A stretch of DNA of 64,000 bases from Cymodocea nodosa (taxonomy: Eukaryota; Streptophyta; Magnoliopsida; Alismatales; Cymodoceaceae), in assembly GCA_036874045.1 (NCBI GenBank), contig CM072343.1, positions 14,466,001 through 14,530,000 on the forward strand, given 5' to 3'. A model generated the notes under the pieces. It saw nothing but the letters and a program-made list of their open reading frames with translations. It did not search any database and was not told the DNA's origin. A program made the translations under genes and the position numbers. Shown here piece by piece: positions 1,839-60,095 of the stretch; position 1 is the stretch's first letter, and each line of letters begins with the position of its first letter.

Positions 1839-3968
1839 TGTTTGTGTTTGGCCAGCACGACACTAGAAAACTTGTATTGTATCTCCAACAATGCATCAAA
1901 AAAACTTGGATTTGTTAACTTCTATTTTTACTTAGTTAATTTATCTTTATGCCTATTCTTTTTTTAAAAGAAAATAAACAACCTTTCACACAATATCTAA
2001 TTTGTATTTTAACTGCAAGTGCACAGTGTCTATTGTATTAGTATGCAAGTATAGGTCGATCCCATAGGAAATTGCTTAAGAATTGAGAACTGTTCCATTT
2101 TTTCAATAATCAAATTTATATATTCAATAAGCTCTCCGTTGAGTTACAGTTATCTCAACGGACAAAGTTTGTTTAGTTATGGCTAACTCAACGGACTAAC
2201 CTTGTGGACTTAAGTTAACTCCACGAGCCTGCATTTCCTAGTTAATACTACTATTTACAGAGGAATTCGACCAACCATTGGGCGGTTCCACAGATTGTAA
2301 ATAACATCAATTAAACTCTTTAATATTAGTAAACACTGGATTTATCATTAGGCAATACTAACATTCAGATAATTCAAACAGTAATCATTAAAACCTTTAA
2401 GTCTTTTGAACGAACCAATTTCAGTAAACTGTAAAACTAAAACAAACATAAAACAATCACAATATTGACAAAGATAACATTAATCACGATACAACACAAA
2501 CAATACAACACTCAAATACAAAATACAATCACAGATAAGTTGTTTTCGGTATTTTTGTTTTAATATGAACATAGAAATGGGCGAAAGGTGAAATGTAAAG
2601 TAATCTCAGTTGATAGTAAATACTTCCGTTACTACATATGACGCGATTACACTACTAAAAATTAAACCACTTACAATTCTGTCTCCTCTCCTTATAGAAT
2701 CGTCAGTCCATAATTGCAAGATGATCTCCTCTTCAGCATACAGGCATCAACCCGAAGCCAAGGCTAGAAGCTTTACGATCTCCTGAAATATGAGTCGGCA
2801 CTTGGTGAAAATGGCTTCCCTTCCTGCGACGCGATCACTCCTCACAGTGGTTGTAAGGCACTGTGTTTGGCTCGAAATCGACCCGACATTAGGAAAGTAT
2901 CCTCACAGACCTTCGATGGTTGGTGATAAGGTGGTGATAATGTGGTGGTGGTGATAATGGTTGGTGTGGTACTTCAGAGAATTGCCGACACTGTCTACAG
3001 AAAGCTCGGTGCTCCTTCTCTGTACACACTGGCCATGCCCATCGATCACACACCCTTTACTTCTTTTTCTTCTTTTCTTTTATATTTCTTTAGTGGTAAT
3101 TGCTTCTGCTTGAATGGTTAGTTGGATTTCCTTCATTCATATCAACGACGATGCTTTCTTCTCCCTTCGACAAGTGAATTCTTGCGTGATACAGATAGTG
3201 CGATCGTGGTTTTTCCTTCTAACTGTCCTATTTCTGCAACCGCTATAGTGGCATATTAGAAAATAAATAGTCCGTGGAGTTACAGATAACTCAACGGACT
3301 TACCTCGTTGATTTAACTATAAAACACATGCATAAATTTAACTATCCGATGCTCAGGTGCATTTCGGATACTTATAAACTTAACTATCTGATACCTAGAT
3401 GCATTTCGGATAGTTACAGATAACTCACCGATATATAACTTAAGTAAATCTACCATATCTCAACACATGTCAACAGCAGTTTAATAATAAAAGAAACATT
3501 TCATAGAGTTACAGGTCTAACTTTCCGATGCTCAGCTACAATTTCGGATAGTTATAGATAACTCACCGAAAGTTCACTTAAGACATGCATTATGGTTTCG
3601 ACACGTGTACTTCAGGAAATAATAAAATATTCTTTTAAAGCATAACTGTTCGGTAGTTTAAAACATAACTATCTGATACATGTTCGGTATGTTAAACATA
3701 ATTGTCTGAAATATGTTTGATATGTTAAACATAACTGTCCTAAATATCAAAAAATTCGGATACTTAAGAATTTCATAGCATGCAACTTACCGACAGTTCA
3801 GAAATGTACTAAATTAACATTAATTCACCGAAATTAAGTAGATTCTTTAATTAAAGCATATAACAGTGCAATTATAACATAATGGCTTAATTCTCATATG
3901 ATAAGCTAAATATTATGTAATTAACCATCATTCAAACGTTAATATTATGCACTTTTTCATTGTAAATA
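1839..3968 (-). repeat. Solo Athila-type LTR in element A
   Basis: This 2130-bp LTR lies in minus orientation and is flanked by the 5-bp target duplication GTTAG (1834-1838 and 3969-3973). Its plus-strand right end (about 3930-3968) matches the ends of the related LTRs near 28383, 50185 and 56229. Its left part matches the LTR at 26620-28383. No internal region is present, so it is a solo LTR, presumably left by LTR-LTR recombination. It holds many copies of the YTCGNNNAGTTA word and ACACGTGT G-box cores, especially at 3280-3600. Confidence 0.88.
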
Positions 3969-4990
3969 GTTAGCTAAGAAGAACCTAGTAGATGGTTTAC
4001 CCAATTTGAAATATAAAAAGGATAAAATTTGTGATGTATGTGAATTGGGAAAACAGAAAAAGGGTTCTTTTAAATCAGGAAAGCAAATTATATCTAGAAG
4101 AATTTTGGAATTAATTCACATGGATTTATTTGGCCCTACTAGAACAGAAAGTTTAGGTGGTAAGAGATATGTATTTGTTCTAGTTGATGATTTTTCAAGA
4201 TATACTTGGGTAATATTTCTAAGACATAAGAGTGAAGTATTTGAGGAGTTTAAAATTTTTCTGAATATGATTCAAAATGGAAAGCAATTGAAAGTTCAGA
4301 AAATTAAGAGTGATCATGGAGGGGAATTTGAAAATGAAAATATGGAAAGACTTTGCCAAGATCTAGGAATAGAACATAGATTTGCCTTTCCTAGAGCCCC
4401 TTCTCAGAATGGAGTTGTAGAGAGAAAGAATAAATCTCTTCAAGAAATGACTAGAACTATGTTGAATGAAAACAACGTTGCTTATTATTTTTGGGCTGAG
4501 GTAGTTAGTACTGCATGCTATATTTTAAATAGAGTAACCCTAAGAAGAGACATGAATAAGACTCCTTTTGAGCTATGGATGGGAAGAATTCCTAAAGTAT
4601 ATTATTTTAAAGCTTTTGGATCTAAATGTTTTATTCTGAATATAAAAGAGAATAAAGATAAATTTGAAGCAAAATCTGATGAAGGTATATTTTTGAGATA
4701 TTCTTCAAGATGTAAAGCATATAGAATTTATAACAAAATTTCTTTGGCTATTGAAGAATCTATGCATGTAAATTTTGATGAAGAGTCAAGTAATATTTCA
4801 AAAGAAATTACTGATACTTTGGATTATGAATGTGATGAATCAAATATTGGAGAATCTAGTTCCATGGGTCAAGAAAGAAATGATAACCCTTTGACTCATA
4901 AATTCTTGCCTCAACACCCTAACGAGTTTATTATTGGTGATATTTCTAAAGGTGTGCAAACAAGATCTAGATTAATGTATCTAGGTGCTA
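3969..4990 (+). pseudogene. Integrase of element A
   Basis: Integrase inserts the element cDNA into the genome. The CC half of the HHCC zinc site (CDVCELGKQK) is encoded near 4030. The core then carries the D,D-35-E triad in IHMDLFGPTRTES, SDHGGEFENE and APSQNGVVERKN. The C-terminal part includes KAFGSKCFIL and a VNFDE block typical of copia. A variable, acidic linker towards RT starts near 4770. It lies directly after the GTTAG repeat that closes the LTR insertion. It is a fossil. Confidence 0.87.
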
Positions 4991-5009
4991 TGCTTTTCTA
5001 TCTGAAATA

Positions 5010-6476: not shown

Positions 6477-7724
6477 TGTATCTTTTATCTTTTACTTTTT
6501 CAATATTTACTTCACCATCTCTTTTTCTATTATTTATTTATACTGCGTTATTTTGATGATCTACTTCAGTGTAATTCTAATATTGAGTTATTTTTTGAGA
6601 ATATTTACAAATTTTTTTTCAAACCTTAAAACAACAACAAAACAGACAACTATCTTCATTGGATTTTCTACTAAGTTTATAAGTTACAATGATTCCTTAC
6701 ATCTATATTAAAATCAACTTAGAGTAATTCATCAAAATTACTGATGGCTTCTACTCCACAAATAGAATAATGCCCACATGACACTTAGAATGGGGATCTA
6801 AATCTGAAAAATAGCCAAGTTGCCTTATTATTTCAGTAATTGTATTCCTCTTTGCTAGACATGATTAGATAATTTAGAGGTATTTAATATGTGAGGGTGA
6901 AAAATAAGGAAAATTGGTTGGAAGCAATAAGACTCAAGATATTTAACCTAACATTGTCCAAATGTTTTTAACTTTCTACACTTTCCCATTTTCAGTGCTG
7001 TCAAAATGATTGCCATTGTTAAAAAAAAATGGAATGTTTGTTGCAAAGAGCAACCAACACCAAATAAATAAATAAAAACCTTTGATTATTGGTTATGTAG
7101 TACTAACAGTTTCATAATTCTCAAAGATCTTCTTTTCCTCTTAGTTAATTACATAACAGACATGGTTAAGGGAAAATGTACCTTGGGGTTGCTTCATGGA
7201 AATTTCAAACTAGCTAGAGAGAACATATTAAATGTGTCTGAATTTTTCTATTCTGAAAACATTAAGTTCTAGCACTAAAGTTTATAAAAACTGATTTTTT
7301 AAGGTTAATAAGGTGAACCATAGGATCAAGTTCTTATCCTAAGTGAAATGTGTTCTTTATCCTACTATGGAGTCTTGAATATTTCAGTAATTCTCACAAA
7401 ATTAAAATTTAAATGAAAACAAAAAAACAAAAAATTTCTTTTTCCTAGTAAAGAACTACTTATATATATTTTTATATCTATATATCTAATCAAAAAATAA
7501 AAATAAAAATAGAAACAAAAAAAAACATAAAATAAAATAAAATAAAAAAACACTATAAAAATACAAATACCACGACAAATTTTTTTTGTGCTAATTTCTT
7601 TTATTCAAAAATTCAGGGGGAGTTTATTCTTTTTCATATGTCTGATTTTCTCAATTTTAAGATCTCTTCCTTTCTTAGTCAGCATATTTTTAAGGGGAGT
7701 TATTTTTTATTTACCTAGATAGGT
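6477..7724 (+). other. Unclassified AT-rich tail after element A
   Basis: I see no coding similarity here. The stretch 6640-7350 contains none of the hairpin words that fill the surrounding LTRs and is the least repeat-like sequence in the window. Runs of A and T lie at 7490-7560. A GGGGGAG polypurine-like tract lies near 7615 and AGGGGAG near 7693, as expected close to the 3' end of a SIRE-type element. It may therefore be the untranslated tail of element A, or unique host sequence. Element D begins at 7725. Confidence 0.4.
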
Positions 7725-8097
7725 TGTGATGCGTGTGTCTTCCATCAAGTATATGTATGTGTCATTGAATATGGTTGTATTTCTTTGATAATTTGTACAG
7801 GGGCAAACTTGTCTTTTCGGTATCACCAACCGTTGCCCCTATATATGTAAGGCGTCATCCACGTCCAAGGGATGTCATGTCAAATCATCCCTTGATTTTG
7901 TACTCCCCCTTCTTTGTACCAGCAACCATACAGCAGAGAATCACGATAGATTGATCACCCATGGACGTACCCGTGTTGGGGAACCACGTAAATTTGTTGT
8001 TCTTCGAATTCTCCACTCGCAATCCTCTCTTCCATGTAGATCTCTTCTCCACGCCGCCCCTAGATGCTCCACATTTGTTTGATCTTTCCACACAACA
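7725..8097 (+). repeat. 5' LTR of element D
   Basis: This 373-bp LTR begins TGTGATGCG and ends CACAACA. A TATA-like box lies at 7839-7847. It lacks the YTCGNNNAGTTA words and CACGTG boxes that fill the other LTRs of the window, so it serves as an internal contrast. Confidence 0.93.
7839..7847 (+). promoter_or_regulatory. TATA-like box in the 5' LTR of D
   Basis: CTATATATG follows a GC-richer stretch and lies about 115 bp into the LTR, a usual place for the U3 promoter of a short copia LTR. The same sequence occurs in the 3' LTR near 12929. Confidence 0.6.
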
Positions 8098-8099
8098 AC

Positions 8100-8111
8100 T
8101 GGTATCAGAGC
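8100..8111 (+). other. Primer binding site of D (initiator tRNA-Met)
   Basis: TGGTATCAGAGC starts two bases after the LTR end. It is the standard plant copia site complementary to the 3' end of initiator tRNA-Met and primes minus-strand cDNA synthesis. Confidence 0.93.
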
Positions 8112-8143
8112 CAGGTTGGACATCTCTGGGTTTGCATCTGAAG

Positions 8144-8515
8144 TTTTGAAGAGTTTCATCAAGGTTCAAGCCATTTCCGTAAGGGATCTCTCCAATGTTG
8201 TAACTGCCGTCGTCGCCGACGCCAATCTGCACACTCCAACGCCAAGTCGTGTGCCTTCCTCGTCTGTGCTCCATTGCGTCTCAAATTTTGAGGGCGTGTA
8301 GTAAGCTTCGATCTTCCTTCCTTTAAAATTTTGAAGAGATTGATCGAGGTTCAAGTCATTTCCACAAGGATATCCCCCATTTCCGTAACTGCCGTCGTCG
8401 CCGGCGCCAATCTACACACTCTGACGCCAAGTCGTGTGCCATCCTCATCCGTGCTCCGTTGCATCTCAAATTTTGAGGACGTGTAATAAGCTTCCTGAAA
8501 TTCCTTCCTTTAAAA
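8144..8515 (+). repeat. 185-bp tandem duplication in the leader of D
   Basis: Two consecutive diverged copies of about 185 bp begin at 8144 and 8329, each opening with TTTTGAAGAG. Each contains GTAACTGCCGTCGTCGCC and a CGCCAAGTCGTGTGCC block. They lie in the untranslated leader between the primer site and gag. The leader runs to the gag start at 8848 and is otherwise T-rich. Confidence 0.85.
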
Positions 8516-8847
8516 TTTCATCATCAGAAGTTTCGTATTTAGAGAGATACAGCTAGAGGCGTCTGGCTAGGGCACAATAGTTTTCTAGACGAGTGATTCT
8601 TTGATTGTCGGATTTTGGGCATTTTGTGATTGTGGTTTTGTGCTTGGTTTGTGCAAGTATTTACTAGTATTTTGTGCTAAGTAGTGTGCTTGGCTTGTGG
8701 CTGATTGCATTTCGTTGAAATCAGTAGTTTCAGTAGCATATTGTTGTTGAGATATTGCTTGCTATTGTGTACCTTGCCGTAGAATTGTGTTTGTTGAAAT
8801 CACATTGTATCTCGTGTGTATTGCTGGTTGTTTGTTGTTTTGAAAAC

Positions 8848-9650
8848 ATGAATACTTCAGGGTTGAAGATAGAAAACTTTGATGGTAAAAATAGCTTCAA
8901 CTTATGGCAAATTAAGATGAAAGCACTTCTAAAGCAACAAGGTATTTAGGCTCCTTTAAATAAGGAAACTACTTTGAACAGAAATTCGCCAGAGTTTGAA
9001 TTGCAGGAGGAGAAAGCTCACTCCACCATCTTGTTGTGTTTGTCTAATGAAGTTATAATAGAAGTTGCTGATGAATCTACCTCATTAGGTCTTTGGCAGA
9101 AACTTGAGTCATTGTATATGACTAAGTCTTTAACAAACAAATTGTTGTTAAAGCAGAGACTGTTCTCTTTAAAGATGATAGAAGGTGTACCTCTTAAGCA
9201 GTATTTAGATCAGCTAAATGCTATTCTGATGGAACTCAAGAATATTAGAGTAATCATAGAAGATGAAGATGCAGCTCTTATCTTGCTTTGTTCACTCCCA
9301 TTGAGTTATGAAAACTTTGTTCAGTATTGTGTAGTTGGAAGAGATTCAATTACACTGGAAGAAGTGAGGTCCAACCTTCATTCCAAGGAGCTCAGGCTCA
9401 TGGTGCTTGGTAGAAACGAGGCAAGTGGTGTTGGCCTCTCAGCTCAGCAGCAAGAGAACAGGGGAAGAAGCTAGAGACAAGGTGGAGGGAAGAATAGAAG
9501 TAGAAGCAAGTCGAAAGGCAAGTACTCTAGGGATACTTGCCATTACTTAAAGGAGAAAGGACACTAGAAATCACATTGTCCCAAGCTTATGAACAAAGGA
9601 AAGGCTGCTATGGCAGAAACCAGTTCTGCGTTAGGTGATGACTTTTCTCT
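8848..9650 (+). pseudogene. gag of element D
   Basis: The ATG at 8848 opens MNTSGLKIENFDGKNSFNLW, the typical N-terminus of Tnt1/Tork-like Gag. The UBN2-type central domain follows (LWQKLESLYMTKSLTNKLLL, LNAILMELKNI). A Ser/Arg/Lys-rich stretch and a degenerate zinc-knuckle region lie near 9530. It forms the particle shell. It is a broken fossil. Confidence 0.85.
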
Positions 9651-9679
9651 TACAGTTTGTTGCGGTGCCTATTCTGATG

Positions 9680-10755
9680 ATCAATGGATTATGGACTTAG
9701 GAGCTTCACATCATATGACTCCTACTAGGGAGTATTTTGACACCTACAAGTAGGTGGAGGGTGGTCAAGTGACTTTGACCAATGATGATGTGTGTTCTAG
9801 AGTTGGTGTGGGCACTATAAAATTTAAACTACATGATGGCACAGTTAGAATTCTGGAGGACATTTGGCACATCCCAAAGCTTAGAAATTTAAACTGCATG
9901 ATGGCACAGTTAGAATTCTGGAGGACATTTGGCACGTCCCAAAGCTTAGAAAAGGTCTGATCTCATTGATGGCCCTTGATGCTAAGGGTTATAGATATAC
10001 AGGTGGTGAGGGGAAGATCAGCATACTGAAAGGCTCGTTAGTTGTTATGAAGGGAACCAAATCTGGTCCCTTATACATTTTGCAAGGCAGCTACATCAGC
10101 TATATTTGGTCAATAGGATTTTTCTATCATGTGGCACTCAAGGATGGGTCATTTGGGGCAGAAAGGGATGCAGAAATTGAGTAGTCTGGGCAAGTTTGAT
10201 GGGCACAAGGTTGCTTGTATTGACATGTGCAAGCATTGTGTCTTTGGCAAACAGAAAAGAGTGTCATTTGCATATAGTCAGCATAGCTCCAAAGGAGTTC
10301 TTGATTATATTCATGTTGATTGTTGGGGGCCTTCACGTCAGCCTTCTATTGCAGGTTCCAGATATTTTCTTTCTATCATTGAATATCATTCAAGGATGAA
10401 CTGGGTTTTCTTTTTGACACACAAAAGTGAAGCTTTTTCTTACTTCAAGCATTGGAAGAAGCAGGTAGAAAACCAAACAGACAGAAAGGTAAAATATCTT
10501 AGAATTGATAATGGTCTTGAGTTTTGTTCTCAAGAATTTGATAACTTTTGTAAAGATGAAGGCATTACACGGCATAACACCGTTAGGTATACCCCTCAGC
10601 AGAATGGAGTGGCTGAAAGATTGAACAGAACACTCCTAGAAAAGGCACGTTGTATGCTATCTCATGCAGGTTTGAGCAAGAAGTTTTGGGTAGAGGCTGT
10701 TAACATAACTTCCTATCTAGTGAATAGGTCCCCTTCTAGTGCCTTAGGGGAATAA
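9680..10755 (+). pseudogene. Protease and integrase of element D
   Basis: The protease-like signature MDLGASHHMT is encoded near 9690. The GAG-pre-integrase HHCC site shows WHSRMGHLGQKGMQKL and CKHCVFGKQKR. The integrase core carries YIHVDCWGP, RIDNGLEFCSQ and TPQQNGVAERLNRTLLEKAR, the D,D-35-E pattern. The region ends in the LVNRSPSSAL block typical of Tork elements. It is a broken fossil. Confidence 0.85.
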
Positions 10756-10759
10756 TGAC

Positions 10760-12746
10760 AAGCTGGAACCACGTGCCAAGAAAGGCATATTTGTGGGCTA
10801 TGGTGTTGGTGTAAAGGGATACAGGATATATGATATTGAATCTCACAAAGTAATATATAGCCGTGATGTTACTTTTGATGAGAATTCTCTTTTGCAGGCA
10901 ACAGATAAACTAGCAAGTGAAACACCAGAAATTGAGCACACCCTTCCTGAACAGATGGATATAGATGACGTACAGCAGTTGCCTATCACTGATCAAGTTG
11001 AAATTAAAGAAATCTTATCTGAAACTCAAGAATATGAAGTTGAGGAGGAAGAGGTGGAGCAACCACCACCAAGAACCATTAGCAAATATCGTCCTAGAAG
11101 AGACGTTAGACCTCCGATTAGATATGGCTACGACAGTTTGATTGCTTTTGCCTTACAAGTAGCAGTTGAGGTGGAGGATTCTGTTGATCCACCTACATAT
11201 GAAGCTGCAATGAAAGATTCAGAAGCTGGTCTTTGGATGTCTGCTATGGAGGAGGATATTCAATCTCTCCATAAGAACAAGACTTGGGAACTAGTGAAAC
11301 GTCCAAAGAACACAAATATTGTTGGTTGCAAATGGGTCTATAAGAAGAAGATTGGGACTCAAGGCAACGTAGGTGTGTAGCATAAGGCAAGATTAGTCGC
11401 CAAAGGTTATTCACAGCGAGAAGGAGTTGACTTCAATGAGGTATTTGCTCTTGCTGTACGTCATACATCTATTAGAATTTTGTTATCCACTGCTGCATCA
11501 CAAAATTTAGAATTGGAACAACTAGATGTAAAGACAGCCTTCTTGCATGGTGAGTTGGAAGAAAATATTTGGATGGAACAACCAACAGGGTTTGTGGTGA
11601 AAGGTAAATCTGATTGGGTGTGCAAATTAAATAAGTCCTTATATGGATTTAAACAGTCACCACGCCAATGGTACAAAAGGTTTGATGCCTTTATAGTTAA
11701 AATTGGTTTTAGACGCAGCAACTATGATTCATGTGTATATGTTAAAACTCTTGATAAGAGTACACATGTTTATTTGTTATTGTATGTTGATGATATTCTT
11801 ATAGCTGCGAAGAATATCGAAGTGATATAGGAGCTGAATGACATATTAAAATTAAAAAATTGATATGAAGGATCTTGGTCCAGCTGGCAGAATTCTTAGA
11901 ATGGAGATTAGGCGTGAAAGAAATTCTGGTAAGCTGTTTTTGAATCAACAAAAGTATATTGAGAAGGTCCTTAGCAGATTTGGTATGGCTTCATGCAAAG
12001 CCATTAGCACGCCTTATGATAGAAATGTCAAATTGTCATCTGCGATGTGTCCTCAAATTGATTCTGAAAAGCTTGATATGCAGCGAGTTCCTTATGCATA
12101 GGCAGTTGGAAGTCTTATGTATGCTGTGGTATGCACTAGGCCTGATCTAGCATATCCTTTGAGTGTTGTTAGTAGGTTCATGTCCAATCCGGGCAGGGAA
12201 CATTGGAAAGCAGTTAAAAGGATATTGAGATATTTGAAAGGAACTCCAAGTGTTGCCTTGATGTATGCAGCAGATCAGGGTTGTACTATGGCTGGTTATA
12301 CAGACTCAAACTATGCAGGTGATGTTGACAGAAGGAGATCATTATCTAGTTATGTCTTTACATTTGCAGGTTCTATTGTGAGTTGGAAATCAACTCTTCA
12401 GCCTACGGTATCTCTGTCCACAATTGAGGCTGAATATGTGGCTATGACAGAAGCTGCAAAGGAAGGGATTTGGTTGAAAGGCTTACTTGGAGACTTTGGT
12501 TGGCGCATTGATAAAGCTGATATCTTCTATGATAGTCTTAGCGCTATTTGTCTCTCCAAAGATAATGTCTTTCATGATAGAACTAAACATGTTGATGTTA
12601 AGTATCACTTCCTTAGGAATGAAGATAGGATAAAGATTATGAAGGTCAACACAAAGGACAATTCGACTGATATGCTTACAAAGGGCGTTGTTGAAAGCAA
12701 GTTCAAGCATTGCTTGGACTTACTCAACGTCTGTTGTTGTTGCTAA
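10760..12746 (+). pseudogene. Integrase tail, RT and RNase H of element D
   Basis: The integrase C-terminal block (GYRIYDIESHKVIYSRDVTF) is followed by an acidic, Pro-rich linker and the RT. Visible RT motifs are WELVKRPKN, LDVKTAFLHGELEE, SLYGFKQSPRQWYKRFD and the catalytic YVDDILIAA near 11785. RNase H shows YTDSNYAGDVDRRRS, SLSTIEAEYVAM and DMLTKGV, ending at 12746. These wordings are Tork/Tnt1-like. It is a broken fossil. Confidence 0.87.
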
Positions 12747-12797
12747 CCCAAGTTGGGTCTTGGTGATCCATCACCTGTTTGTGGTGAAGATTGATGA

Positions 12798-12814
12798 AGG
12801 ACAAGGTGGAGATC
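12798..12814 (+). other. Polypurine tract of D
   Basis: GGACAAGGTGGAGATC lies directly before the 3' LTR. A purine tract here primes plus-strand cDNA synthesis, and AAGGTGGAGATC followed by TG is the usual Tork form. Confidence 0.8.
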
Positions 12815-13187
12815 TGTGATGCGTGTGTCTTCCATCAAGTATATGTATGTGTCATTGAATATGGTTGTATTTCTTTGATAATTTGTACAAGGGCAAACTT
12901 GTCTTTTGGATATCACCAACTGTTGCCCCTATATATGTAAGGGGTCATCCACGTCCAAGGGATGTCATGTCAAACCATCCCTTGATTTTGTTCTCCCCCT
13001 TCTTTGTACCAGCAACCATATAGCAAGGAATCATGATAGATTGATCACCTGTGGACGTACCTGTGTTGGGGAACCATGTAAAATTATTGTTCTTCGAATT
13101 CTCCACTCGCAATCCTCTCTTCCACGTAGATCTCTTCTCCACGCCACCCCTAGATGCTCCACGTTTGTTTGATCTTTCCGCACAACA
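12815..13187 (+). repeat. 3' LTR of element D
   Basis: This 373-bp LTR is co-linear with 7725-8097 without a net length change. Most differences from the 5' LTR look like C/T or A/G transitions, as expected from decay of methylated cytosines. Confidence 0.93.
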
Positions 13188-43448: not shown

Positions 43449-43466
43449 ATCTCCCCCTTTTTGATG
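43449..43466 (-). other. Polypurine tract of element G
   Basis: On the minus strand CATCAAAAAGGGGGAGAT lies directly before the TG of the 3' LTR. This is the SIRE-type polypurine tract, also seen at 36584-36600 in element F. A second GGGGGAG copy lies near 43503. Confidence 0.82.
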
Positions 43467-46700: not shown

Positions 46701-46726
46701 GAGTAAATATCTTTGATCTCACTATC
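43721..46726 (-). pseudogene. Extra post-pol ORF of element G, main part
   Basis: On the minus strand the order mirrors the ORF of element F. N-terminal helical blocks lie left of 46726 and an acidic linker at about 45200-45570. A globular part (44100-44480) has VLGL and FGHGVEVVRCCLYATYALI, comparable to VGHNLEVS and SLYATYDLLNRI in F. Gln-rich wording follows near 43860-43990. It contains the 256-bp triplication 45571-46338. The N-terminus lies beyond the insertion, at 49582-49658. It is a heavily decayed fossil of unknown function. Confidence 0.65.
45571..46338 (-). repeat. 256-bp tandem triplication
   Basis: Three head-to-tail copies begin at 45571, 45827 and 46083, each opening ACT(G/A)CAATATACCTTGTAC. 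They are nearly identical to one another (a few substitutions), much closer than the two LTRs of G, so the amplification is recent relative to the element. An assembly artefact is possible. Confidence 0.92.
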
Positions 46727-49581: not shown

Positions 49582-49880
49582 CTATCTATTTTCTAAAGTT
49601 CTATCTCCTTTTTCTACACTTTTGTCATTCTACCACGTCTTGTTCCACGTCTTGACATTGTCGATTAATCTCTGCTTTTCACTATAGAACTTGATGGAAG
49701 TAAAGATTTTCAATCTAGGTTTTTATAAAGGTAGAAACACAAAAGGTTATTAGTAAAACATTTACAACTCTTCGAGTTTATAAATGGATAAACAGATTCA
49801 ATCATTGAAATCATAAATATAAGATCTATTTTTCATAAATAACTCGAAACCTTACAATAACTGTACGAGTTTTACAACCT
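49582..49880 (-). pseudogene. Extra ORF of G, N-terminus and upstream region
   Basis: The ATG at 49658 (minus) opens MSRRGTRRGRMTKV, the Arg-rich start shared with 18993. The upstream stretch 49659-49880 matches 18770-18992, including ACTCGTACAGTTATTG and the ATTTATGATTTCAATGATTG block. It shows that the ORF and its upstream region move as a unit. It is a fossil. Confidence 0.65.
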
Positions 49881-50184
49881 ATCAAAGTAGAAGACTTAGC
49901 ATAACAAGCATATGCTAACAAAATTCGTATTGATTCTAGTCTAACAATAGGAGTAAATGTTTCATCGTAGTCAATTCCTTCCTCTTGCCTGTAACCTTGA
50001 GCAACTAACCTAGCTTTATTTTTAACCATATGTCCATCCTGATCGACTTTGTTTCTGAATACCCACCTTGTTCCTATTATAGACTATTTTTTAAGGGGTG
50101 GAATTAGATCTCATACCTCATTTCTTATAAATTGATTTAGCTCATCTTGCATAGCTAAATACCAAAATTCATCTTCTAAGACAT
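49881..50184 (-). pseudogene. RT part of element G, left of the solo LTR
   Basis: On the minus strand NKARLVAQGYRQEEGIDYDE, TFTPIVRLESIRILLAYAC and EFWYLAMQDELNQFIRNEV are the N-terminal RT blocks of a SIRE-type copia. The part continues across the solo LTR at 52386. It is a fossil. Confidence 0.82.
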
Positions 50185-50541
50185 TGTTTAGAATGAAAAA
50201 GTGCATATTATTAACAGTTAAATGATGGTTAATTGCATAATATTTAGCTTATTATATGAGAATTAAGCCATTATGTTATAATTGCACTATTATATGCTTT
50301 AATTAAAGAATCTGCTTAATTTTAGGGAATTAATGTTAATTTAGTACATTTCTGAACTGTCGGTAAGTTGCAGGCTGTGAAATTCTTAAGTATCCGAATT
50401 TTCTGATATTTCAGACAATTATGTTTAACATACCGAACATATTTCGGACAGTTATGTTTAATTGACCGAACATGTCGGATAGTTATGTTTTTATTGCCGA
50501 ATAGTTATGTTTTGAAAGAATATTTTATTATTTCCTGAAGT

Positions 50542-50960
50542 ACACGTGTCAAAACCATAATGCATGACTTAAGTGAACTTTCGGTGAGTTATCTCTAACT
50601 ATCCGAAATTGCAGCTGGGCATCGAATAGTTATATGTGTAACTCTCTGAAATATCTTTTTATTTATAAAATAGCTGTGAACACGTGTCATGTTCTGGGAA
50701 AGTGACTTAAGTGGATTTTCGGTGAGTTATCTGTAACTATCCGAAATGCATCTGAGCATTGGATAGTTAGACCTGTAACTCTTCGAAATGTGTATTTTAT
50801 TATTAAACTGCTGCTGACACGTGTCGAGATCTAGTAGATTTACTTAAGTTATATATCGGTGAGTTATCTTTAACAATCTGAAATGCATCAGAGCATCAGA
50901 TAATTAAGTTTATAAGAATCTGAAATGCACCTGAGCATCGAATAGTTAAATTTATGCACG
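50542..50960 (+). repeat. Three tandem 137-138-bp modules in the Athila LTR
   Basis: Units start at 50542, 50680 and 50817, each opening ACACGTGTC. Each then carries ACTTAAGT, the arm pair TCGGTGAGTTA/TAACTATCCGAAA (or its decayed form), and a GCATCGGATAGTTA-type word followed by TAACTCTTCGAAATG-type wording. The unit lies upstream of the TATA box, so enhancer-like tandem repeats in U3 are the simplest reading. Confidence 0.83.
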
Positions 50961-51179
50961 TGTTTTATAGTTAAATTAACAAAAAAAGTTCGTTCAGTTA
51001 TTTGTAACTCCATGGACTATTTATTTTCTAATATGCCACTATAGCGGTTGCAGAAACAGGACAGTTGGAAGAAAAACCACGTTTGCACATATCACGTAGG
51101 GAGAAGAAAGCATCGTCGTTGATATGAATGAAGAAAACCCAACCGACCATTCAAGCAGAAGCAGTTACTACTGAAGAAA

Positions 51180-51187
51180 TATAAAAG
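51180..51187 (+). promoter_or_regulatory. TATA box in the solo Athila-type LTR
   Basis: TATAAAAG lies about 995 bp into the LTR, and the same box is found near 27712 (minus) and 54115 (plus) in related LTRs. It separates the hairpin-rich U3 from the R/U5 side. Confidence 0.68.
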
Positions 51188-52385
51188 AAAAGAAGAAAAA
51201 AGGAAGAGTGTGTGTGATCGATGGGTGAACAGTGTGTGTAGAGGAGGATCGACGACACAATTCTCTAAAGTACCTCACCAACCATCATCATCACCATCAC
51301 CATCACCACACCATAATCACCAACCATCGGAGGTCTGTGAGAATACTTGCCTGATGTCGAGTTGATTCCGAGCCAAACACAGTGCCTGACAACCATTGTG
51401 AGGAGTGATCGCGTCATGGGAAGGGAAGCCATTTTCACCAAGCGCCGACTCATATTTCAGGAGATCGTAAAGCTTTTAGCCTTGGCTTCGGGTTGATGCT
51501 TGTATGCTGAAGAGGAGATCATCTTGCAATTCTGGACTCGCAATTCTATAGGGAGAGGAGACAGAATTGTAAGTGGTTTAATTTTCAGTGGTGTAATCGC
51601 GTTGCAAGTAGTGTCGGAAGTATTTACTGTCAAGTGAGATTAGTTTACATTTCACCTGTCGCCCATTTCCATGTTCATATTAAAACAAAAATACAAAAAG
51701 AAACAGTTTATCTTTGTTTGTATGTTGTATTTGAGTGTTGTATTGTTTGTGTTGTATCGTGATTAATGTTACATTTATCAGTGTTGTGATTGTTTTATAT
51801 TAGTTTTAGTTTTACAGTTTACTGAAATTAGTTCGTTCAAAAGACTTAAAGATTTTAATGGTTACTACTTGAATTATCTGAATGTTAGTATGCTTAATGA
51901 TAAATCCAGTGTTTACTAACATTAAAGAGCTTAATTGATGTTATTTACAATCTGTGGAATCGCCCAATGGTTGGCTGAATTCCTTTGTAAATAGCAGTAT
52001 TAAAAAGAAAAGACAGGCTCGTGGAGTTAAACTTAAGTCCACAAGGTTAGTCCATTGAGTTAGCCATAACTCAACGAACTTTGTCCGTTGAGTTAACTGT
52101 AATTCAACAAAGAGCTTATTGAATATATAAATTTGATTGTTAACAAACGAACAGTTCTCAAGTTCTTTAGCAATTCCTTGTGGGATCAACTTGTACTTGC
52201 ACACTGATACAATAGACATTATATACTTGCATTTAAAGTACAAATTGGAATTAATATCTAAATTGTATTAAAGGTTGTTTGTTTACTTCTAAAAGAAAAA
52301 GAATAGGCATAAAGCTAAATTAACTAAGTAAAAATAGAAGTAACAAATCAAAGTTTTTCTGGTGTCATGTTGGAAAAGACAAACA

Positions 52386-53037
52386 GGCATCTTTAGTTTT
52401 CTTAGGTCCTTGTAACGAAACAAATGAATAAGCACTACAAATGTTGACTATTGATGACCTAGTCCTAACTCCTTGATTAGGATCGCCTATTATCTGATAA
52501 ATAGGATGAGATGAAGCATAACGCCAATTTCTATGTTGTTCCACATTTTCTATAGGCATGACATTATTTTCTTCTAAATCTTCATCATTCAAGTTTATAT
52601 TTCTTAGTTCGTTAGATAATCTCTCAATTTCTCTGTCAACATCATTTGATACCATTTCTGGGAGAATTTCTGAATCAATATTTTCAGCATGTCTAAAATC
52701 CAAATGAGAATTTCATGAAATTTCACATATAGGGTTTCCTCAATGGTTTTTGTTGATTTATTATATACTCTATACGCTTTACTTCTAATGGAATAACCAA
52801 CAAAAATACCCTCATCTAATTTGGCTCTAAATTTGTCACTACATTCTTTAGTATTCAAAATAAAATACTTACAACCAAACAATTTTAAATAACTAATTTT
52901 GGAAACTCTATTATACCATATCTCATAAGGAGTTTTATCCAAAATGGGTCTTAAATGCACCCTATTTATAACATAACTTGCTGCATGAACTGCTTCTGCC
53001 TAGAGAAATAAGGGTGACTTATTTTCATTTAACATGG
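52386..53037 (-). pseudogene. Integrase end and RT start of element G
   Basis: On the minus strand, MHLRPILDKTPYEIWYNRV, LFGCKYFILNTKE and FVGYSIRSKAYRVYNKSTK are the integrase C-terminal blocks of a SIRE element. An acidic linker (EIERLSNELRNINLNDEDLE, NWRYASSHPIYQIIGD) leads to the RT. It is a fossil bounded on both sides by Athila-type LTR insertions. Confidence 0.83.
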
Positions 53038-54550
53038 TGTTAAAAATGAAAAAGTGCATAATATTAAGGGTTAAATGATGGTTAATTGCATAATATTTAG
53101 CTTATCATATAAGAATTAAGCCATTATGTTATAATTACACTATTATATGCTTTAATGAAAGAATCTACATAATTTTAGGAAATTAACATTAATTAAGTAT
53201 ATTTCTGAACTATCAGTAAGTTGCAGATTTTTAATTCTTAAGTATCCGAATTTTCTGTTATTTCGAAGAGTTATATTGCATGTATCGAACAGTTATGTTT
53301 TAAATGCTTAAAGAATATTTTATTATTTCTTAGAGTACACGTGTTGTAACCATAATGCATGGCTTAAGTAAATGCTCGGTAAGTTATTGTTAACTATCTG
53401 AAATGCATCTAAACATCGGATAGTTAGGTTCGTAAGTATTCGAAATATCTGAACTTGTTAAGTTTGAATTATGCACGTGTTGAATTTAAATGCTTTATTA
53501 TGTCACATGAGTTGCACATGTATAACTCGTCAAGTTAGAATAACTATATATGTTGAGTTACTTGAATATACACTAAACTAACGTATTGTGTTAGTGTTAT
53601 GTAGAAATAGGAAAAGTAAACTTTTGGATAGTTAACGTTTCGTTTTAGTCATAGAGTTATGTTAAAAACTTGTATAGTTAATTTATCCACATATGTGTTT
53701 TTAATGTTTTAAGTTGTCACATGTTTTCCATGTGCATTCAGTAAGGAAAATCGAAGAGTTAGATAACTGTTTGAGTTTTTATACGCATAGATAGATAACT
53801 GTTCGAGTTTTATAAAATGACTAACAAACAGATAAGTTTTCTATGTTCAGTCACATATTTTGTAGGAGCAAAAACTTGAAGAGTTATAGATAAGTGTTCG
53901 AGATTTTATAGGACTTAAAGGACAAGTGTTCGGCTAAAATGAAGACTTACAAGAATTAGAAGAGTTACAAGAAGATACAATACGAAGGAAAACCATGATT
54001 GCACGTATCACGTAGGAATTCACTCATGGAAGGAAGAAGAAATCACCATTGTCGATATGTATGAAGGAAATCCAACTGATCATCTAAGTAGAAGCAGTTA
54101 CTACAGAAAGAAATATAAAAGAAGAGGAGAAAGACGAAGAAAGTGTGTGTGCAGAGGTGGAGGACCGCGCTAACTACAGACAACGTTGGAAGCTCCCTGA
54201 AGCTCCACACCACCACCAAAATCACCAACCATTGGAGGTCTGTGAGGATACTTTCCTGATGTCAGGTCGATTTCGAGCCAAACACGGTGACTGACAACCA
54301 TTGTGAGGAGTGATCGCATCGTGGGAAGGAAAGTCATTTTCACCAAGCACCGACTCATATATCAGGAGATCGTAAAGCTTCTAGCTTTGGTTTTGGGTTG
54401 ATGCTAGTATGCTGAAGAGGAGATCATCTTACAATTTTGGATTCGCGATTCTATAGAGAGAGGAGGCAAGATTGTAAGTGATTAAGTTTCCAATGATGTA
54501 ATCGCCTCGCATGTAGTGACAGAAGTTTTTACTATCGATAGAGATTTTTA
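53038..54550 (+). repeat. Athila-type LTR, left arm of an inverted pair, chimeric
   Basis: It begins TGTTAAAAATGAAAAAG in plus orientation and runs through a TATAAAAG box near 54115 to the GATAGAGATTTTT block at the centre. Its segment 53614-53949 is not Athila-like but matches the family C copia LTR (13368-13702). It faces the minus-orientation arm that starts at 54551. Confidence 0.82.
53614..53949 (+). repeat. Copia family C LTR segment inside a gypsy-type LTR
   Basis: About 335 bp align collinearly with 13368-13702. Shared landmarks are TATGTTAAAAACT, GTGTTTTTAATGTTTTAAG, GATAACTGTTTGAG, ATAAAATGACTAAC and GACTTAAAGGA. Athila-type sequence resumes at about 53975 with ATACGAAGGAAAACC. The other Athila LTRs of the window have a different sequence at this place. 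Confidence 0.82.
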
Positions 54551-56229
54551 ACTCGACGAGCCTATCTTTCCAATTAAATACTACTATTTACAAAGGAATT
54601 CAGCCAACCATTGGGCAGTTCCACAGATTATAAATAACATCAATTAAGTTATTTAATGCTAGTTAATATTAGATTTATCATTAAGTAACACTAACATTCA
54701 GATATTTCAAACAGTAGCCATTAAAATCTTTAAGTATATGGAACAAATCAATTTCAGTAAATCGTAAAACTATTTTCTATTTTCTGAATCAAACAACATA
54801 AAACATTCACAATAATGACAATGATAACATTACTCACGATACAAAACAAACAATACAACACTTAAATACTAAATATAAACATAGATAAGTTATTGTTTTT
54901 GGTATTTTTGTTTTGATGTGTTCATGAAAATGGGCGAAAGGTGAAATGTAAAAATCTCTATCGACAATAAAAACTTCTGTCACTACATGTGATGCGATTA
55001 CACCACTGAAAACTTAATCACTTACAATCCTGCCTCCTCTCTCTATAGAATCATGAGTCTAGAATTGCAAGATGATCTTCTCTTCAGCATACTGGCATCA
55101 ACCTGAAACCAAGGCTAGAAGCTTTACGATCTCCTGAGATATGAGTCGGTGCTTGGTGAAAATGGCTTCCCTCCCTACGACGCGATCACTCCTCACAATG
55201 GTTGTTAGGCGCCATGTTTGGCTCGGAATCGACCCGACATCAGGAAAGTATCCTCATAGACCTTCGATGGTTGGTGACTTTGGTGATTTTAATGGTTTTG
55301 GTGGTGAGGTAGAGCTTTAGGGAACTTCCGATGTTGCCTACAGTTAGCACATTCCTCCACCTCTACACACATTGCCAACCATACTTTCTTCATTTTTCTC
55401 CTTTTCTTTTATATTTCTTCAGTAGTAACTACTTCTACTTAGATGATCGGTTGGATTTCCTTCATTCCTATCAACGATGGTGATTTCTTCTTCCTTCCAC
55501 GAGTGAATTCCTACGTGATATGTGCAATCGTGGTTTTCCTTTGAATGTCCTATTTCTATAACCGCTATAGTGAAATATTAGAAAATAAATGGTCCATGGA
55601 GATACAGATAACTCAACGGACTTACTTCGTTGATTTAACTATAAAACACGTACAATAAAGAAATAAGGTGCTAACATAACGTGTTACCTTAGTGTGTATT
55701 CACGTAACTCAATGCGTACAATTATGCTAACTTAACGAGTTAAACATGTGCATCTCACGTGATATACTAAAGCATTTAAATTCAACACGTGCATAATTCT
55801 AACTTAATGAGTTCAGATATTTCAGACACTTACGAACCTAACTATCCAATGCCTAGATGCATTTCAGATAGTTAATAGATAACTTACCGAAAATCCACTT
55901 AAGTCATGCATTAAGGTTTCAACACGTGTACTCCAAGAAATAATAAAATATTCTTCTATCATTAAAAACATAACTGTCCGGTACATGCAATATAACTCTC
56001 TAAAATAACAAAAAATTTGAATACTTAAGAATTTCACAGCCTGTAATTTATCAACAGTTCAGAAATGTACTAAATTAACATTAATTCCCTGAAATTATGT
56101 AGATTCTTTCATTAAAGCTTATAACAGTGCAATAATAACATAATGACTTAATTCTTATATGATAAGCTAAATATTATGCAATTAACCATCATTTAACCAT
56201 TAATATTATGCACTTTTTCATTCTAAACA
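54551..56229 (-). repeat. Athila-type LTR, right arm of an inverted pair
   Basis: Read from 56229 (TGTTTAGAATGAAAAAG) leftwards to 54551. It matches 1839-3968 and 26620-28383. The two arms together form a long inverted repeat centred near 54550. ACATG lies directly right of it (56230-56234) and also at 53032-53036, one base before the left arm. Confidence 0.83.
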
Positions 56230-56815
56230 ACATGCATCACACATAACCTCTTTCGAGTAATTAATACTACGTAAACCTCTAACCAGATTCTTTTTAGACA
56301 ACTTTTGTAATAATTTTAAGTTTGAATGTCCTAGCCTTCTATGCCATAAAATAACTTCATTTGATTTTGCAATTAACTAAGCATCGTCTTTAATAATATT
56401 AGTAGGCAAATTCAGAATACAAATGGATCCTTTCTTATATGTAGTGAATAAAATTTCGTTTGTATACATGTCCATAATTTTACAGGAATCTTTTTCACAA
56501 ATTACTCTATAAAACTTCATTAAAATAGGGACACTTAATAAATTAAAACCTAAGTTTTCTACTAATAATACACCATTTATAAAACACTTTTCAATTACCT
56601 GAACCTTGCCAAACCCAAGGATTTTTGTTTTACTTTTATTTCCAAAGGTAACTTGTTGTTCTTTGTTTTTGTTACTTCTGTAAGTAATCGTATGTCTCCA
56701 ATCATGTGGTTGGATGCTCCACTGTCCATTATTCATTTTGATTTGTGTACCTGCAAAATAGTTAAGAAGAGATTTTATTTCTTGGAACCCATTTCTAAGT
56801 GGGTCCAAGAATTTT
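56230..56815 (-). pseudogene. Protease and GAG-pre-integrase region of element G
   Basis: On the minus strand, QQVTFGNKSKTKILGFGKVQ, INGVLLVENLGFNLLSV and GSICILNLPTN are the copia protease C-terminal and linker blocks. The pre-integrase wording (LWHRRLGHSNLKLL) ends at CDAC near 56232. It is similar to 1430-1838 in element A. It is a broken fossil. Confidence 0.82.
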
Positions 56816-58800
56816 AGAGTGAGTCATATGAAAATAATCAATATTTTTAAACTTCAACTTATTTATTTTCTGATAATTATTCCTACGTTTATTACTCTTA
56901 GTGTTGTAATTATCAGAACATTTATCTCTATGTAAAATAGAGTTGAAATTTTCATTTCTGATATTATTTAATTGCTCTTTCTAATTTCTGATATTTTTCA
57001 AATATAAAGAAAATTGATCAAAGATATTAATGTTTTCAAATGACTTAGCCCGATTTTTCTGAAAATTTCTTTTGGGACTCTTGCATCGTGTGCTATTATC
57101 TATGTGTTGTATTTTATTAATTTGCACATATTTATCTCCCTTTTTAATCACATACAGAATAGTTTTTCTTTTACTATTCTTAGTACTAGAAATAAAGACA
57201 TTATTTTTAGTAGTACCATCACGCAACATATAATTTTTAGAAGATGCATCATGTAAACCAATATCATGTTTTTCTACATTTGATATTTTACTACTAAGTT
57301 CATTTGTTATAGTCTAACTATTATTCTATTTACTTAAGGTAGTCTTTTGATCGCAAACCTTAATTTTTAACATATCAATTTCTAAATTTAAATTAGTAAT
57401 AGTCAATTTCAGTTCTTCAACTTCACAAATCGTTTTCTTTTTATCAACAATTAAATTTTCACAATCAACATGTAATTTTCTTTCTATTACAGTAAACTTT
57501 AAAATTTCCTATGCATGCTTTTGATTTTTTTCTTTAAATTTATTCAACGTAGAATTTAGAAAATCAATCTTATTTTTAGATTCATCTAGCATTTCCCTAA
57601 TGTTCTTTCCTTCTATTTTTACTTTCTTATATTTTCTAGCTAGTTTATTGTATTCAACAAGTAATTTGTCAAAACTATCATAACTAGCATTTGAATCATA
57701 AGATACCTCACTAAAATTTGCCATGAAGTACACGTTCGCTAGATTTTCTTCTAAATCTGATTTTGATGAGGATTCACAATCTGATGTTGAATCCTTTGTT
57801 TCTTTACTTTGTAAAGCTAAATAGTCATCCCATGTCACTTTAAGTGTCTTTCTCTTTTTAAATTTCTTATTCCTGAAATTTCTCCTCGAATTCTTCTTAT
57901 TTTTGTTGAAAGGACAATCAGTTTAAAAGTGACCCAACCTGTTGCACTTGTAGCATATGATTTTGTCCTTCATAAATGACTTCTTATCCATATCTCCGGA
58001 TGTCTTTGCTGACCTGAAGTTCCTGCGTTTCTTCAACAAATCTCTAAATTTTTTGGTCAACAAAAGTAAATCATCATTAGAATCACTAGTGATTTTTGAG
58101 ACTTTATCATCCTCAAAAGTCAGATCCCTACTAGGATTCTTTCCTTTTGGATCTAAATGTTGTACTTCATAGGCTGACAGATTGCCTATGAGATCATCAA
58201 GAGTATATCTATTTAAATCTATGGACTCTTCAATAGATGTTGTCTTTTGAGCCCAAATTTTAGTTAAAGATCTAAGGATCTTTCTTACCTAGTCTTTTTC
58301 CTCGAATTTCTTGCCTAAAGATTTTAATAAATTTACAATCTCAAGAAAATGGTAAAACATATCAGAGATACATTCATTTTCGTGCATTCTAAAAAGCTCA
58401 TATTTATGTACTAACATATTAATCTTAGATTTCTTGACCAGGTTAGTACCTTTGTTGGCAACCTCTAATGCATGCAATATCTCCTATGTAGTTGATATGT
58501 AGAAACTTTATTAAATTGATCATGAGATAAAGCACAAAATAAGATGTTTAAACCTTTAGCATTCAATGTCATTTGCTCCTTTTCATTAAAATTCCAAGTA
58601 TCATATGGAGTTGTAATTAACACTATAGGATTGCTAATTACATGTCATAATTTGAAATGAATTGACTGAAAGAATACTTTCATCCTATATTTCTAATAAC
58701 CATAATTGCTACCTTCAAACATAGGAGGATGAGTAGTGGTCTATCCTTCAGTCATAACTAAAATCTTAGTATTATCCATTTAAACAGATGATCCTAAATA
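56816..58800 (-). pseudogene. gag region of element G
   Basis: On the minus strand from near 58780: the SIRE gag N-terminus (SNYGYWKYRMKVFFQSI), INMLVHKYELFRMHENECIS, and a zinc knuckle opening CYKCNRLGHF near 57955. A long coiled coil follows (57500-57700, KLARKYKKVKIEGKNIREML and similar). A Lys/Asn-rich stretch reaches MDPLRNGFQEIKSLL near 56800. It parallels element A (76-1020) and element H. It is broken in several places. Confidence 0.83.
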
Positions 58801-58839
58801 AATGACAGGAAAAATCGATTCCTAAATAGAAAAATGAAA

Positions 58840-58852
58840 GCTTTGATACCAA
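58840..58852 (-). other. Primer binding site of element G (initiator tRNA-Met)
   Basis: On the minus strand TTGGTATCAAAGC follows the 5' LTR end by one base. It is a slightly changed form of TGGTATCAGAGC and sets the orientation of G. Confidence 0.85.
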
Positions 58853-58853
58853 T

Positions 58854-60095
58854 TGTAGGATCGTAGTATCACAAGAGGGGAGGTGAATTGTGTCTTTAGC
58901 AATTAAAATTACTAGCAATTAAAACAAGAGCAGAAAACACATGTAAATAAAATTCTAATCTTTATATACTTTAAAGAAAAAATTTACAATCTCTTTTCAA
59001 CTCATTTCCTTCTTGTTGGTTCTGATACAATAAAGTCTGAAATATAATTCAAAAAGAAAATAAAATCCTTATTCTAAGATAATTTCGAATTATATAAAAT
59101 CTGATCATTATGCACATAGCTCTTTTTCCTTCTTTTAGCTTCTATATCTTTTCTTCTCGAGTTGCCGAATTTCCAGACTTCTTGAATTGCAACCCCTTTT
59201 CTGAAATTGCTTGGAATTCCGGACTTCTTCTGATGTTGGAGAATTTTTCAGGATTTGAATATTCAGACTTGATATTTGAGATTAGGATGATCGTAATGTA
59301 GCTTGTACCCTCTATTTATAGTAGTCAAACTATGACTTCACGTTCAGCATGTTCATCCACTTAATCCATAATCCATAATCTCACATACTAATTTCAAATT
59401 CAAATTATCCACGATTTCCACTATCTTTTTGAATTTCCACTATGTCCACTCTTTATTTTGAATTTCCACTATCTTATTTTGAATGTCCATTATCTCCACT
59501 ATTATTTTGAATTTCCACGATTTCATATCGTAGATCCACTGAAACTTTAACTTCCTAGAGATTTGTAGAATATCTTCTAAGTCACTACTTTAATCGAACA
59601 CTTATCCTTTAAGTCCTATAAAAACTCGAACACTTATTTGTAACTCTTCGAATTCTTACACCTGCAAAACATGTGACTGAACATGAAAACTTATCTATTC
59701 GTTAGTTATTTTATAAAACTCGAACAGTTATCCATCCATGTATATAAAAACTTGAATAGTTATCTAACTCTTCGATTTTTCATTACCGAATGCACATGGA
59801 AAACACGTGAAAACTTAAAACATTAAAAACACACGTGTAGATAACTTAACTATACAAGTTTTTTAACATAACTCTTCGACTAAATTGAAATGTTAACTAT
59901 CCAAAAGTTTAACTATCCAAAGCTTAACTATCCAAAAACTTTAACTATCCGAAAGTTAACTATCCGAAATTTTAAATGAAACTTTCCAGTAACTTGTCAA
60001 CATTTAATTACATGACTATTATACTTAGAAAAATTTATTTAGACTTATTTATAAACTTTAATGAAATATTCATCATCAAAACAAAATTCCTAACA
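58854..60095 (-). repeat. 5' LTR of element G (family C)
   Basis: This 1242-bp LTR is read from 60095 (TGTTAGGAATTTTG) to 58854 (GATCCTACA). CTCGAACAGTTA lies near 59719 (plus-strand reading), TAACTCTTCGA near 59641, 59767 and 59870, and TAACTATCCGAAA-type words at 59895-59970. Confidence 0.9.

Follow-up and report, generated by a model that had tools for sequence, protein, structure and literature searches.

In a 64,000-nt stretch of the Cymodocea nodosa genome (GCA_036874045.1, CM072343.1:14,466,001-14,530,000; hereafter the window), one degenerate word, YTCGNNNAGTTA, recurs in the long terminal repeats (LTRs) of both Ty3/gypsy and copia retrotransposons. Its closest known system is the RM boxes of Sireviruses (Bousios et al. 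2010, PMC2829016). These are described there as high-copy, mostly CpG-containing motifs in the 5′ half of the LTR, upstream of TATA, present at least eight times per element and beginning 200-400 bp from the LTR start. The unit is palindromic with a CGG-CCG core, except in Tnd-1, and shows dyad symmetry, as in TTTTCGGACWTRTCCGAAAA of rice Osr9; extra copies lie in the linker upstream of the envelope gene (ENV) of envelope-bearing elements. RM boxes were reported to be Sirevirus-specific, and a C-rich integrase signal near the LTR 3′ end is given as a further Sirevirus feature.

Like RM boxes, the word described here is frequent, holds a CpG and clusters in the upper half of the LTR: counted from the LTR start, the main clusters span offsets 203-805 in family A (gypsy) and 271-746 in family B (Sirevirus-type LTR ends; untruncated copies B1 and B2), and begin earlier in family C (copia; 128-509). 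Unlike RM boxes, a single site here has no symmetry of its own, paired sites are separated by spacers of variable length, CGG is restricted to one sub-type, and the word is also present in a gypsy LTR family. Read by eye, Table 3 of PMC2829016 lists 13 RMs, none of which contains YCGNNNASTTA. The linker copies of RM boxes lie ahead of an envelope gene; the internal cluster at 40.5-41.7 kb of the window follows copia reverse transcriptase (RT) sequence, and no envelope gene was identified there.

Two other systems are related in part. According to PMC5735166, VANDAL transposons carry target motifs (YAGTATTAY, AGTTGTMC) of element-encoded VANC proteins, and the VANC6 motifs occur also in the unrelated AT9TSD1. 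As in that system, a short motif is piled up through tandem repeats in the non-coding DNA of elements and is common to an unrelated family; the carriers here are LTRs, however, not VANDAL elements, the motif letters differ, and no candidate open reading frame (ORF) for an element-encoded binder was recognised among the 34 distinct ORFs searched. ONSEN and other COPIA families have recurrently gained clusters of HSFA2 sites, few per LTR (PMC5059998). The likeness lies in a site cluster for one factor, here an inferred one, in several LTR families; the heat-responsive elements are COPIA only, with few sites and a known factor, and module exchange with gypsy elements does not figure in the passages of PMC5059998 consulted.

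Judged by title or abstract start, none of the literature matches listed describes such a word in both superfamilies, and six common 12-mers of this type turned up in eight papers, whose titles all concern unrelated subjects. As far as these listings show, the word, its presence in gypsy and copia elements of one genome at about 200,000 copies, the pairing of its sub-types and the exchange of U3 modules are new. We consider it rather probable that the word is a binding site for a family of sequence-specific proteins, most likely host transcription factors, and that its arrays serve as U3 enhancers in gypsy family A and in the Sirevirus-type copia families B and C.

Abundance and placement of the word

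Counted on both strands, exact YTCGNNNAGTTA occurs 88 times in the window, against means of 0.7-3.7 and a highest single value of 7 in Markov simulations of orders 0-5 (20 per order). This excess is stronger than the one claimed in a preliminary description of the window, which had also allowed that Markov models might predict the word; neither models up to order 5 nor a spacer one base longer yields it. An unbiased scan of the window for gapped pairs of 4-mers ranked fragments of the word first (TAAC..AACG, 75 versus 1.6 expected; TCGG...GTTA, 45 versus 1.0), with TCACGTGA and ACTTAAGT ranked lower. Spacers of 1, 2, 4 and 5 bp in place of 3 gave 0, 2, 0 and 1 hits. Across the assembly (374.6 Mb, 28 contigs) the word is found 206,217 times, compared with 5,537 for the reversed pattern and 1,428, or 144-fold fewer, when the spacer is lengthened by one base; the latter is the better control, because the reversed pattern lacks the CpG. 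Twenty 10-kb loci, one per contig and picked blind to content (197,500 bp; L-numbers below are locus labels), contained 103 words in 12 of the 20, seven reversed words and 2, 4, 1 and 0 words with spacers of 1, 2, 4 and 5. Four later hold-out loci added 36 words, found in all four, with gap 2 seen once and neither gap 4 nor the reversed word. Chance, composition and low complexity are ruled out as its source by the Markov, gapped-scan and spacer controls. No Rfam family matched anywhere in the window at gathering thresholds. Outside the plant, the facing-pair pattern introduced below was found in eight stretches of a 257-Gb prokaryote collection and four of IMG/VR, sets of differing base composition; we take these as chance.

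With tolerated changes admitted, the bipartite broad word is NYCGNNNASTTA, with an invariant 3-bp spacer and a middle that prefers D-W-K. In the window and the 20 loci it has 351 sites, which reduce to 90 flank-distinct contexts by greedy clustering at 55% flank identity. The repeats of the window and their broad sites are as follows.

1839-3968, minus strand: solo LTR of family A, Ty3/gypsy (copy A1), bounded by an exact 5-bp target-site duplication (GTTAG, 1834-1838 and 3969-3973); 14 broad sites, some of them paired face to face (3271, 3405, 3543)
7725-13187, plus strand: element D, copia, with 373-bp LTRs at 7725-8097 and 12815-13187; no sites, a natural negative
13216-14406, plus strand: family C LTR, copia, with Sirevirus-type ends, followed by TTGGTATCAGAGC; 8 broad sites
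16432-17962, plus strand: family B LTR with Sirevirus-type ends; 6 broad sites at offsets 271-679, G-boxes, and TATATAT at offset 752
21508-23162, plus strand: family B LTR, 5′-truncated; 13 broad sites, including an A-like module at 22029-22154
26631-28383, minus strand: family A LTR containing a B-like module (27976-28120), with a sequence like a primer-binding site (PBS) near 26600; the same strand encodes gypsy RT/RNase H at 24933-23410
29724-30420, plus strand: partial family B LTR; 5 broad sites and a short A-like piece at 30318-30386
36826-38143, plus strand: family B LTR, 5′-truncated, adjoining copia integrase sequence; 7 broad sites
40500-41700, plus strand: internal cluster past copia RT; 15 broad sites, with its own tandem repeats of 51 and 97 bp
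42179-43448, minus strand: family C LTR at one end of the insertion 42179-60095 (duplication CATGA); 8 broad sites
46727-49582, plus strand: two family B LTRs in head-to-tail order that abut or nearly abut, with CTATC at both flanks; 17 broad sites, alternately facing and back-to-back at 47505-47549
50185-52385, plus strand: solo LTR of family A, flanked by GACAT/GGCAT; facing pairs at 50580-50607 and 50718-50745
53038-56230: family A LTR pieces, plus strand at 53038-53600 and 53985-54550, minus strand at 54548-56230; a C-like U3 piece (53617-53949) in the plus copy, B-like modules at 53452-53600 and 55670-55813
58854-60095, minus strand: family C LTR at the opposite end of the insertion 42179-60095 (CATGA), with TTGGTATCAAAGC after the LTR; 8 broad sites

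Since the C LTRs at 42179-43448 and 58854-60095 (copies C1 and C2) have CATGA in common, both bound one insertion. Family A is assigned to Ty3/gypsy because PBS-like sequence and gypsy RT/RNase H come after its LTR at 26.6-28.4 kb, all on one strand; in L025, integrase (3-1313) and an A LTR (7249-9906) likewise share one strand. We take family A to be of Athila type. Family C is copia, as in L022 a C LTR, TTGGTATCAGAGC, PF14223 gag and PF00665 integrase follow each other on one strand. Both B and C LTRs carry the C-rich CACCCCCCTCTTGTG or close variants some 20-30 bp before the LTR end. Family B is provisionally classed as copia/Sirevirus-type by its LTR ends alone; none of the B copies seen has a primer-binding site or internal sequence.

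The B, A and C LTR intervals hold 39, 21 and 12 of the 88 window words, the internal cluster 10, and other sequence 6. The 72 LTR sites are the only fair location count, because the 40.5-41.7 kb interval was drawn around the cluster itself. Matches to the window's A, B or C LTRs (E 1e-8) cover 28,626 of the 197,500 bp in the 20 loci and take in 81 of their 103 words. Copies of these LTRs in the window, some of them truncated, have 5-16 broad sites each. The words named in the preliminary description were all recovered (TTCGGTGAGTTA at 50580 and 50718, CTCGTTAAGTTA and TTCGTTGAGTTA at 16702-17110, CTCGAATAGTTA at 43056, CTCGAACAGTTA at 43088, TTCGGATAGTTA at 43279 and 43311), as was its word-free 373-bp LTR of element D. 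Of the at least four LTR families in two superfamilies proposed there, the two superfamilies stand, with three families in the window (A, gypsy; B and C, copia/Sirevirus-type); the supposed separate 'Tork-like LTR of C' dissolves, because the words at 43279 and 43311 fall in the same C LTR as CTCGAACAGTTA. On its placement of the clusters upstream of TATA boxes the evidence points both ways: in A, B and C alike, TATA-like words occur within the clusters as well as past them, and family A has a second site cluster close to the LTR 3′ end. G-boxes (CACGTG) keep to the same repeat intervals as the word in 43 of 44 window cases.

Several further observations concern these repeats. The palindrome ACTTAAGT lies in the same repeat intervals of the window (LTR intervals, 1839-60095) in 22 of 24 cases. 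At 45568-46338 there are three 256-bp tandem copies, 97-99% identical; part of this sequence recurs inverted at 19441-19669 with about 82% identity. L015:3354-4548 and L042:2363-2959, about 70% alike across 1.8 kb, carry the CGTAAAGTTA sub-type and form a further carrier family; by eye, many neighbours of CGTAAAGTTA-type sites in L015 look CpG-decayed, and the adjoining ORF in L042 looks kinase-like. L041:4661-5636 is a dense carrier (24 broad sites in 1 kb) with no ORF of at least 120 aa across the sites, no window match at E 1e-15 and one 622-bp match to L024 at 73%. Separately, an armadillo-repeat exon of this genome shares no more than 60% identity with any of the 120 proteins listed for it; the two top-scoring ones come from Turnera and Chenopodium and many of those ranked next from monocots, a weak sign of a monocot that has no near relatives among the proteins searched.

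Tolerated changes, sub-types and paired sites

The spectrum of single mismatches was determined in the window and the 20 loci, where 191 intact words compare with 1.3 expected from order-3 simulations. Three substitutions are strongly enriched, 1T>C (45 versus 0.7 expected), 0Y>A (45 versus 2.0) and 8G>C (43 versus 0.7), together with the CpG transitions 2C>T (55 versus 10.3) and 3G>A (57 versus 11.7). The remaining classes count at most 12 each, some of them modestly raised (7A>G, 10 versus 1.7; 1T>G, 9 versus 0.7), and mismatches in the closing TTA stay close to expectation, with 1-3 per class. As 2C>T and 3G>A are the transitions expected when methylated CpG decays, this suggests that the sites have been methylated, at least after insertion. 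Such decay would suit arrays that are targets of a host silencing factor recognising LTRs, much as CENP-B homologues act on the Tf2 LTRs of fission yeast. Elements should lose silencing sites, however, and the arrays are instead amplified and shared, so that we hold this explanation to be quite unlikely.

The three N positions show preferences (D-W-K) rather than rules: among 384 sites, C is absent from the first and occurs six times at the second, and the genome matches listed include C at the first N at least once (TTCGCGGAGTTA). The sub-type of a site goes less with the element family than with its neighbouring site and with the base that follows CG. The idea in the preliminary description that each family favours its own NNN, like a dialect, is only partly right: sub-types exist, but GAT is found in A, B and C, single LTRs carry two or more types, and TTCGGATAGTTA is present in all three families.

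Many sites form facing pairs, TCGNNNAGTTA followed by TAACTNNNCGA. In the window and the 20 loci there are 52 such pairs, 44 of them distinct, and all lie 14-18 bp apart from start to start, which leaves 2-6 bp between the partners; adding L041 and L042 gives 52 distinct pairs at 14-19 bp. Genome-wide, TTCGNNNAGTTA-N2-6-TAACTNNNCGAR was counted 11,635 times forward and 11,703 times in reverse, pairs ending CGAA entering on both strands, versus 0 and 0 for the reversed pattern. The base after CG is the same in both partners in 45 of the 52 distinct pairs (18.7 when shuffled) and at 54 of 63 places among the genome matches listed, all from one contig (shuffled 30.4, maximum 44 in 5,000). CGT was never partnered with CGG or CGA, either in the 52 distinct pairs or among the genome matches listed. 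Of the 13 facing pairs within 60 bp in the hold-out loci, 11 are spaced at 14-18 bp, and 10 of these 11 have like partners.

Facing pairs are inverted repeats with potential loops of 2-6 nt, and the NNN letters within them agree in 87 of 132 comparisons versus 52.6 when shuffled, as stems of RNA hairpins in the LTR transcript might. A perfect stem, however, needs all three N alike, which is so in just 11 of the 44 distinct pairs and 11 of the 63 genome matches listed, so that perfect hairpins are the exception; many sites, moreover, are unpaired or in tandem. Hairpins are thus a very improbable explanation, and partners that share the base after CG but mostly not the full NNN favour a DNA-binding protein.

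Sites in the same direction show a 10.5-bp period (120 flank-dissimilar pairs, nR2 17.0; the best of 66 decoy words reached 7.0, so none was as strong), in which pairs from shared arrays are not independent. Because a small hold-out failed to show this period, we treat helical phasing as suggestive. As a separate observation, sites at L013:4896-5009, L025:2303-2416 and L043:8297-8358 alternate between facing and back-to-back in steps of 16-17 bp, apart from one of 36 bp in L013 and L025. The outcome is a nearly regular lattice that repeats about every 33 bp.

Exchanged U3 modules and common descent

As judged from these alignments, sharing of the word reflects both the descent of exchanged U3 modules and something beyond descent of whole LTRs. 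B-like segments are present in all seven A-type pieces tested (window 27976-28120, 53452-53600 and 55670-55813; L011, L020, L023 and L024), which were picked because earlier comparisons pointed to them; identity to the B LTR is 74-79% outside the word, and orientation agreed wherever compared. The LTRs A1 and A3 match B only in short word-bearing stretches (26-61 bp) and nowhere over the B-like segment. Conversely, five B copies tested contain A-like pieces, two of them about 126 bp long and 74-75% identical outside the word (L023 7956-8081 and window 22029-22154), the other three 40-69 bp long. At 53617-53949 the two halves of an A LTR are separated by a 334-bp piece from the middle of the C LTR (C offsets 155-488, 88%), and an A LTR of L024 has a 67-bp C-like piece. 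Otherwise C1, C2 and C3 gave no match to A1 or A3 in five comparisons, and match B at the LTR ends only.

These modules, similar outside the word in both directions, would be expected if one ancestral segment had been copied and exchanged, with the word as its remnant, and the many sites in tandem repeats, with neighbours alike in sub-type, also fit. Against such pure descent, the 88 window words fall into 49 contexts whose flanks are less than 60% identical and which nevertheless retain nine defined positions, whereas neutral descent would erode the word as quickly as its flanks. By this evidence, the 49 contexts, together with C LTRs that lack any match to A1 or A3 and resemble B at their ends alone, are unexplained by whole-LTR descent, and we regard descent alone as improbable. 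That the families might share the word only through descent, as the preliminary description had envisaged, is thus half borne out, by the exchanged U3 modules, and half contradicted, by the flank-distinct contexts and the C LTRs.

A putative protein reader and its implications

The fixed spacer, the selective tolerance of changes, the pairing geometry and the U3 location with G-boxes together point to a DNA-binding protein, probably dimerising, that would act on the promoter. Activation by a family of host transcription factors appears most likely, because arrays that served a silencer would not readily be amplified and traded by the elements that carry them. Such a protein would bind the word as a dimer and activate element transcription; elements with more or better sites would then out-transcribe others, tandem duplication could multiply the sites, and recombination or gene conversion between LTRs could spread them. 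Once inserted, they may become methylated and decay.

Several results weigh against this proposal. Comparing a third copy with two intact ones, we saw no purifying selection on standing copies within families: change was 0.068 versus 0.057 in control blocks for A, 0.020 versus 0.026 for B and 0.039 versus 0.070 for C, from triplets that are not independent. Constraint on the word is consequently inferred from the independent contexts, not from standing copies, and its retention across dissimilar contexts points to selection in source elements or to repeated gain. The likeness of partners may also have another source, since neighbours arranged in tandem or back to back agree at the base after CG too (30/39, 25/29 and 20/27), which together with the agreement of NNN letters within facing pairs indicates that local duplication explains part of the likeness between partners. 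The 10.5-bp phasing was not reproduced in the four hold-out loci (21 pairs; nR2 1.3 at 10.5 and 4.2 at 10.0). A test of use or avoidance at genes found two broad sites versus 2.95 expected and decides nothing, because its eight loci were those that lack the exact word. Finally, no known plant factor was matched to the word. R2R3-MYB proteins, which bind CNGTTR, were rejected: their site needs C two bases before GTTA, a base that is C in 7 of the 90 contexts, and 20 of the 90 read ACTTA instead of AGTTA.

The reader could instead be an element-encoded, VANC-like anti-silencing protein that binds the word and strips methylation, with other families parasitising it by carrying its sites. The word does precede internal ORFs, among them an F-box ORF close to A-type LTRs. 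Yet a Pfam search of 34 distinct ORFs, mostly from broken element copies, returned gag, protease, RT, RNase H, integrase, F-box, one transposase (PF13359), sub-threshold PF20167 and other sub-threshold matches such as a zinc knuckle, and no DNA-binding domain of transcription-factor type; the CpG decay, moreover, suggests past methylation of the sites, at least after insertion. We therefore consider an element-encoded reader unlikely.

L013 and L025 each have a gag-like ORF downstream of gypsy pol, with the word upstream of that ORF; in L013, L025 and L011 the word also lies within about 130 bp before the F-box ORF. Such positions would fit a candidate internal promoter, and they parallel the RM boxes upstream of ENV (PMC2829016). 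The F-box ORF (PF00646; L013:6911-7516, plus strand; L021:7077-8030, minus strand; L025:4339-5277; L011:6932-5997; E 1e-10 in L013 and 2.5e-10 in L021) precedes an A-type LTR; in L013 and L025 it also follows gypsy pol and the gag-like ORF. The three copies other than L021 have 2-3 stops and ratios of non-synonymous to synonymous substitution (dN/dS) of 0.35-0.73 against the L021 ORF. When the L021 ORF was compared with 5.8 billion proteins, none of 555 candidates scored at E 0.001, and the term F-box is absent from the 8 of 28 related papers listed.

A more far-reaching reading of the sub-types, which we put forward tentatively and as less probable than host activation, is a regulatory code across superfamilies: paralogous proteins, host or element-encoded, would each recognise a single sub-type (CGT or CGR) and dimerise like with like, and elements of the gypsy and copia superfamilies would compete for, copy and exchange the arrays.

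Two unrelated retrotransposon superfamilies thus carry many copies of one rigidly spaced word in their control regions. If this word is a protein-binding site, competing genomic parasites use, and in part trade, one switch; if its reader is element-encoded, unrelated retrotransposons would share one trans-acting system of anti-silencing or activation. How elements evade silencing and find their niche of expression is an open question, for which about 200,000 copies and a 144-fold spacer control offer an unusually clean handle. The binder, once found, could explain the expression of much of the repeat fraction of a genome and show whether unrelated retrotransposons converge on a switch or trade it.

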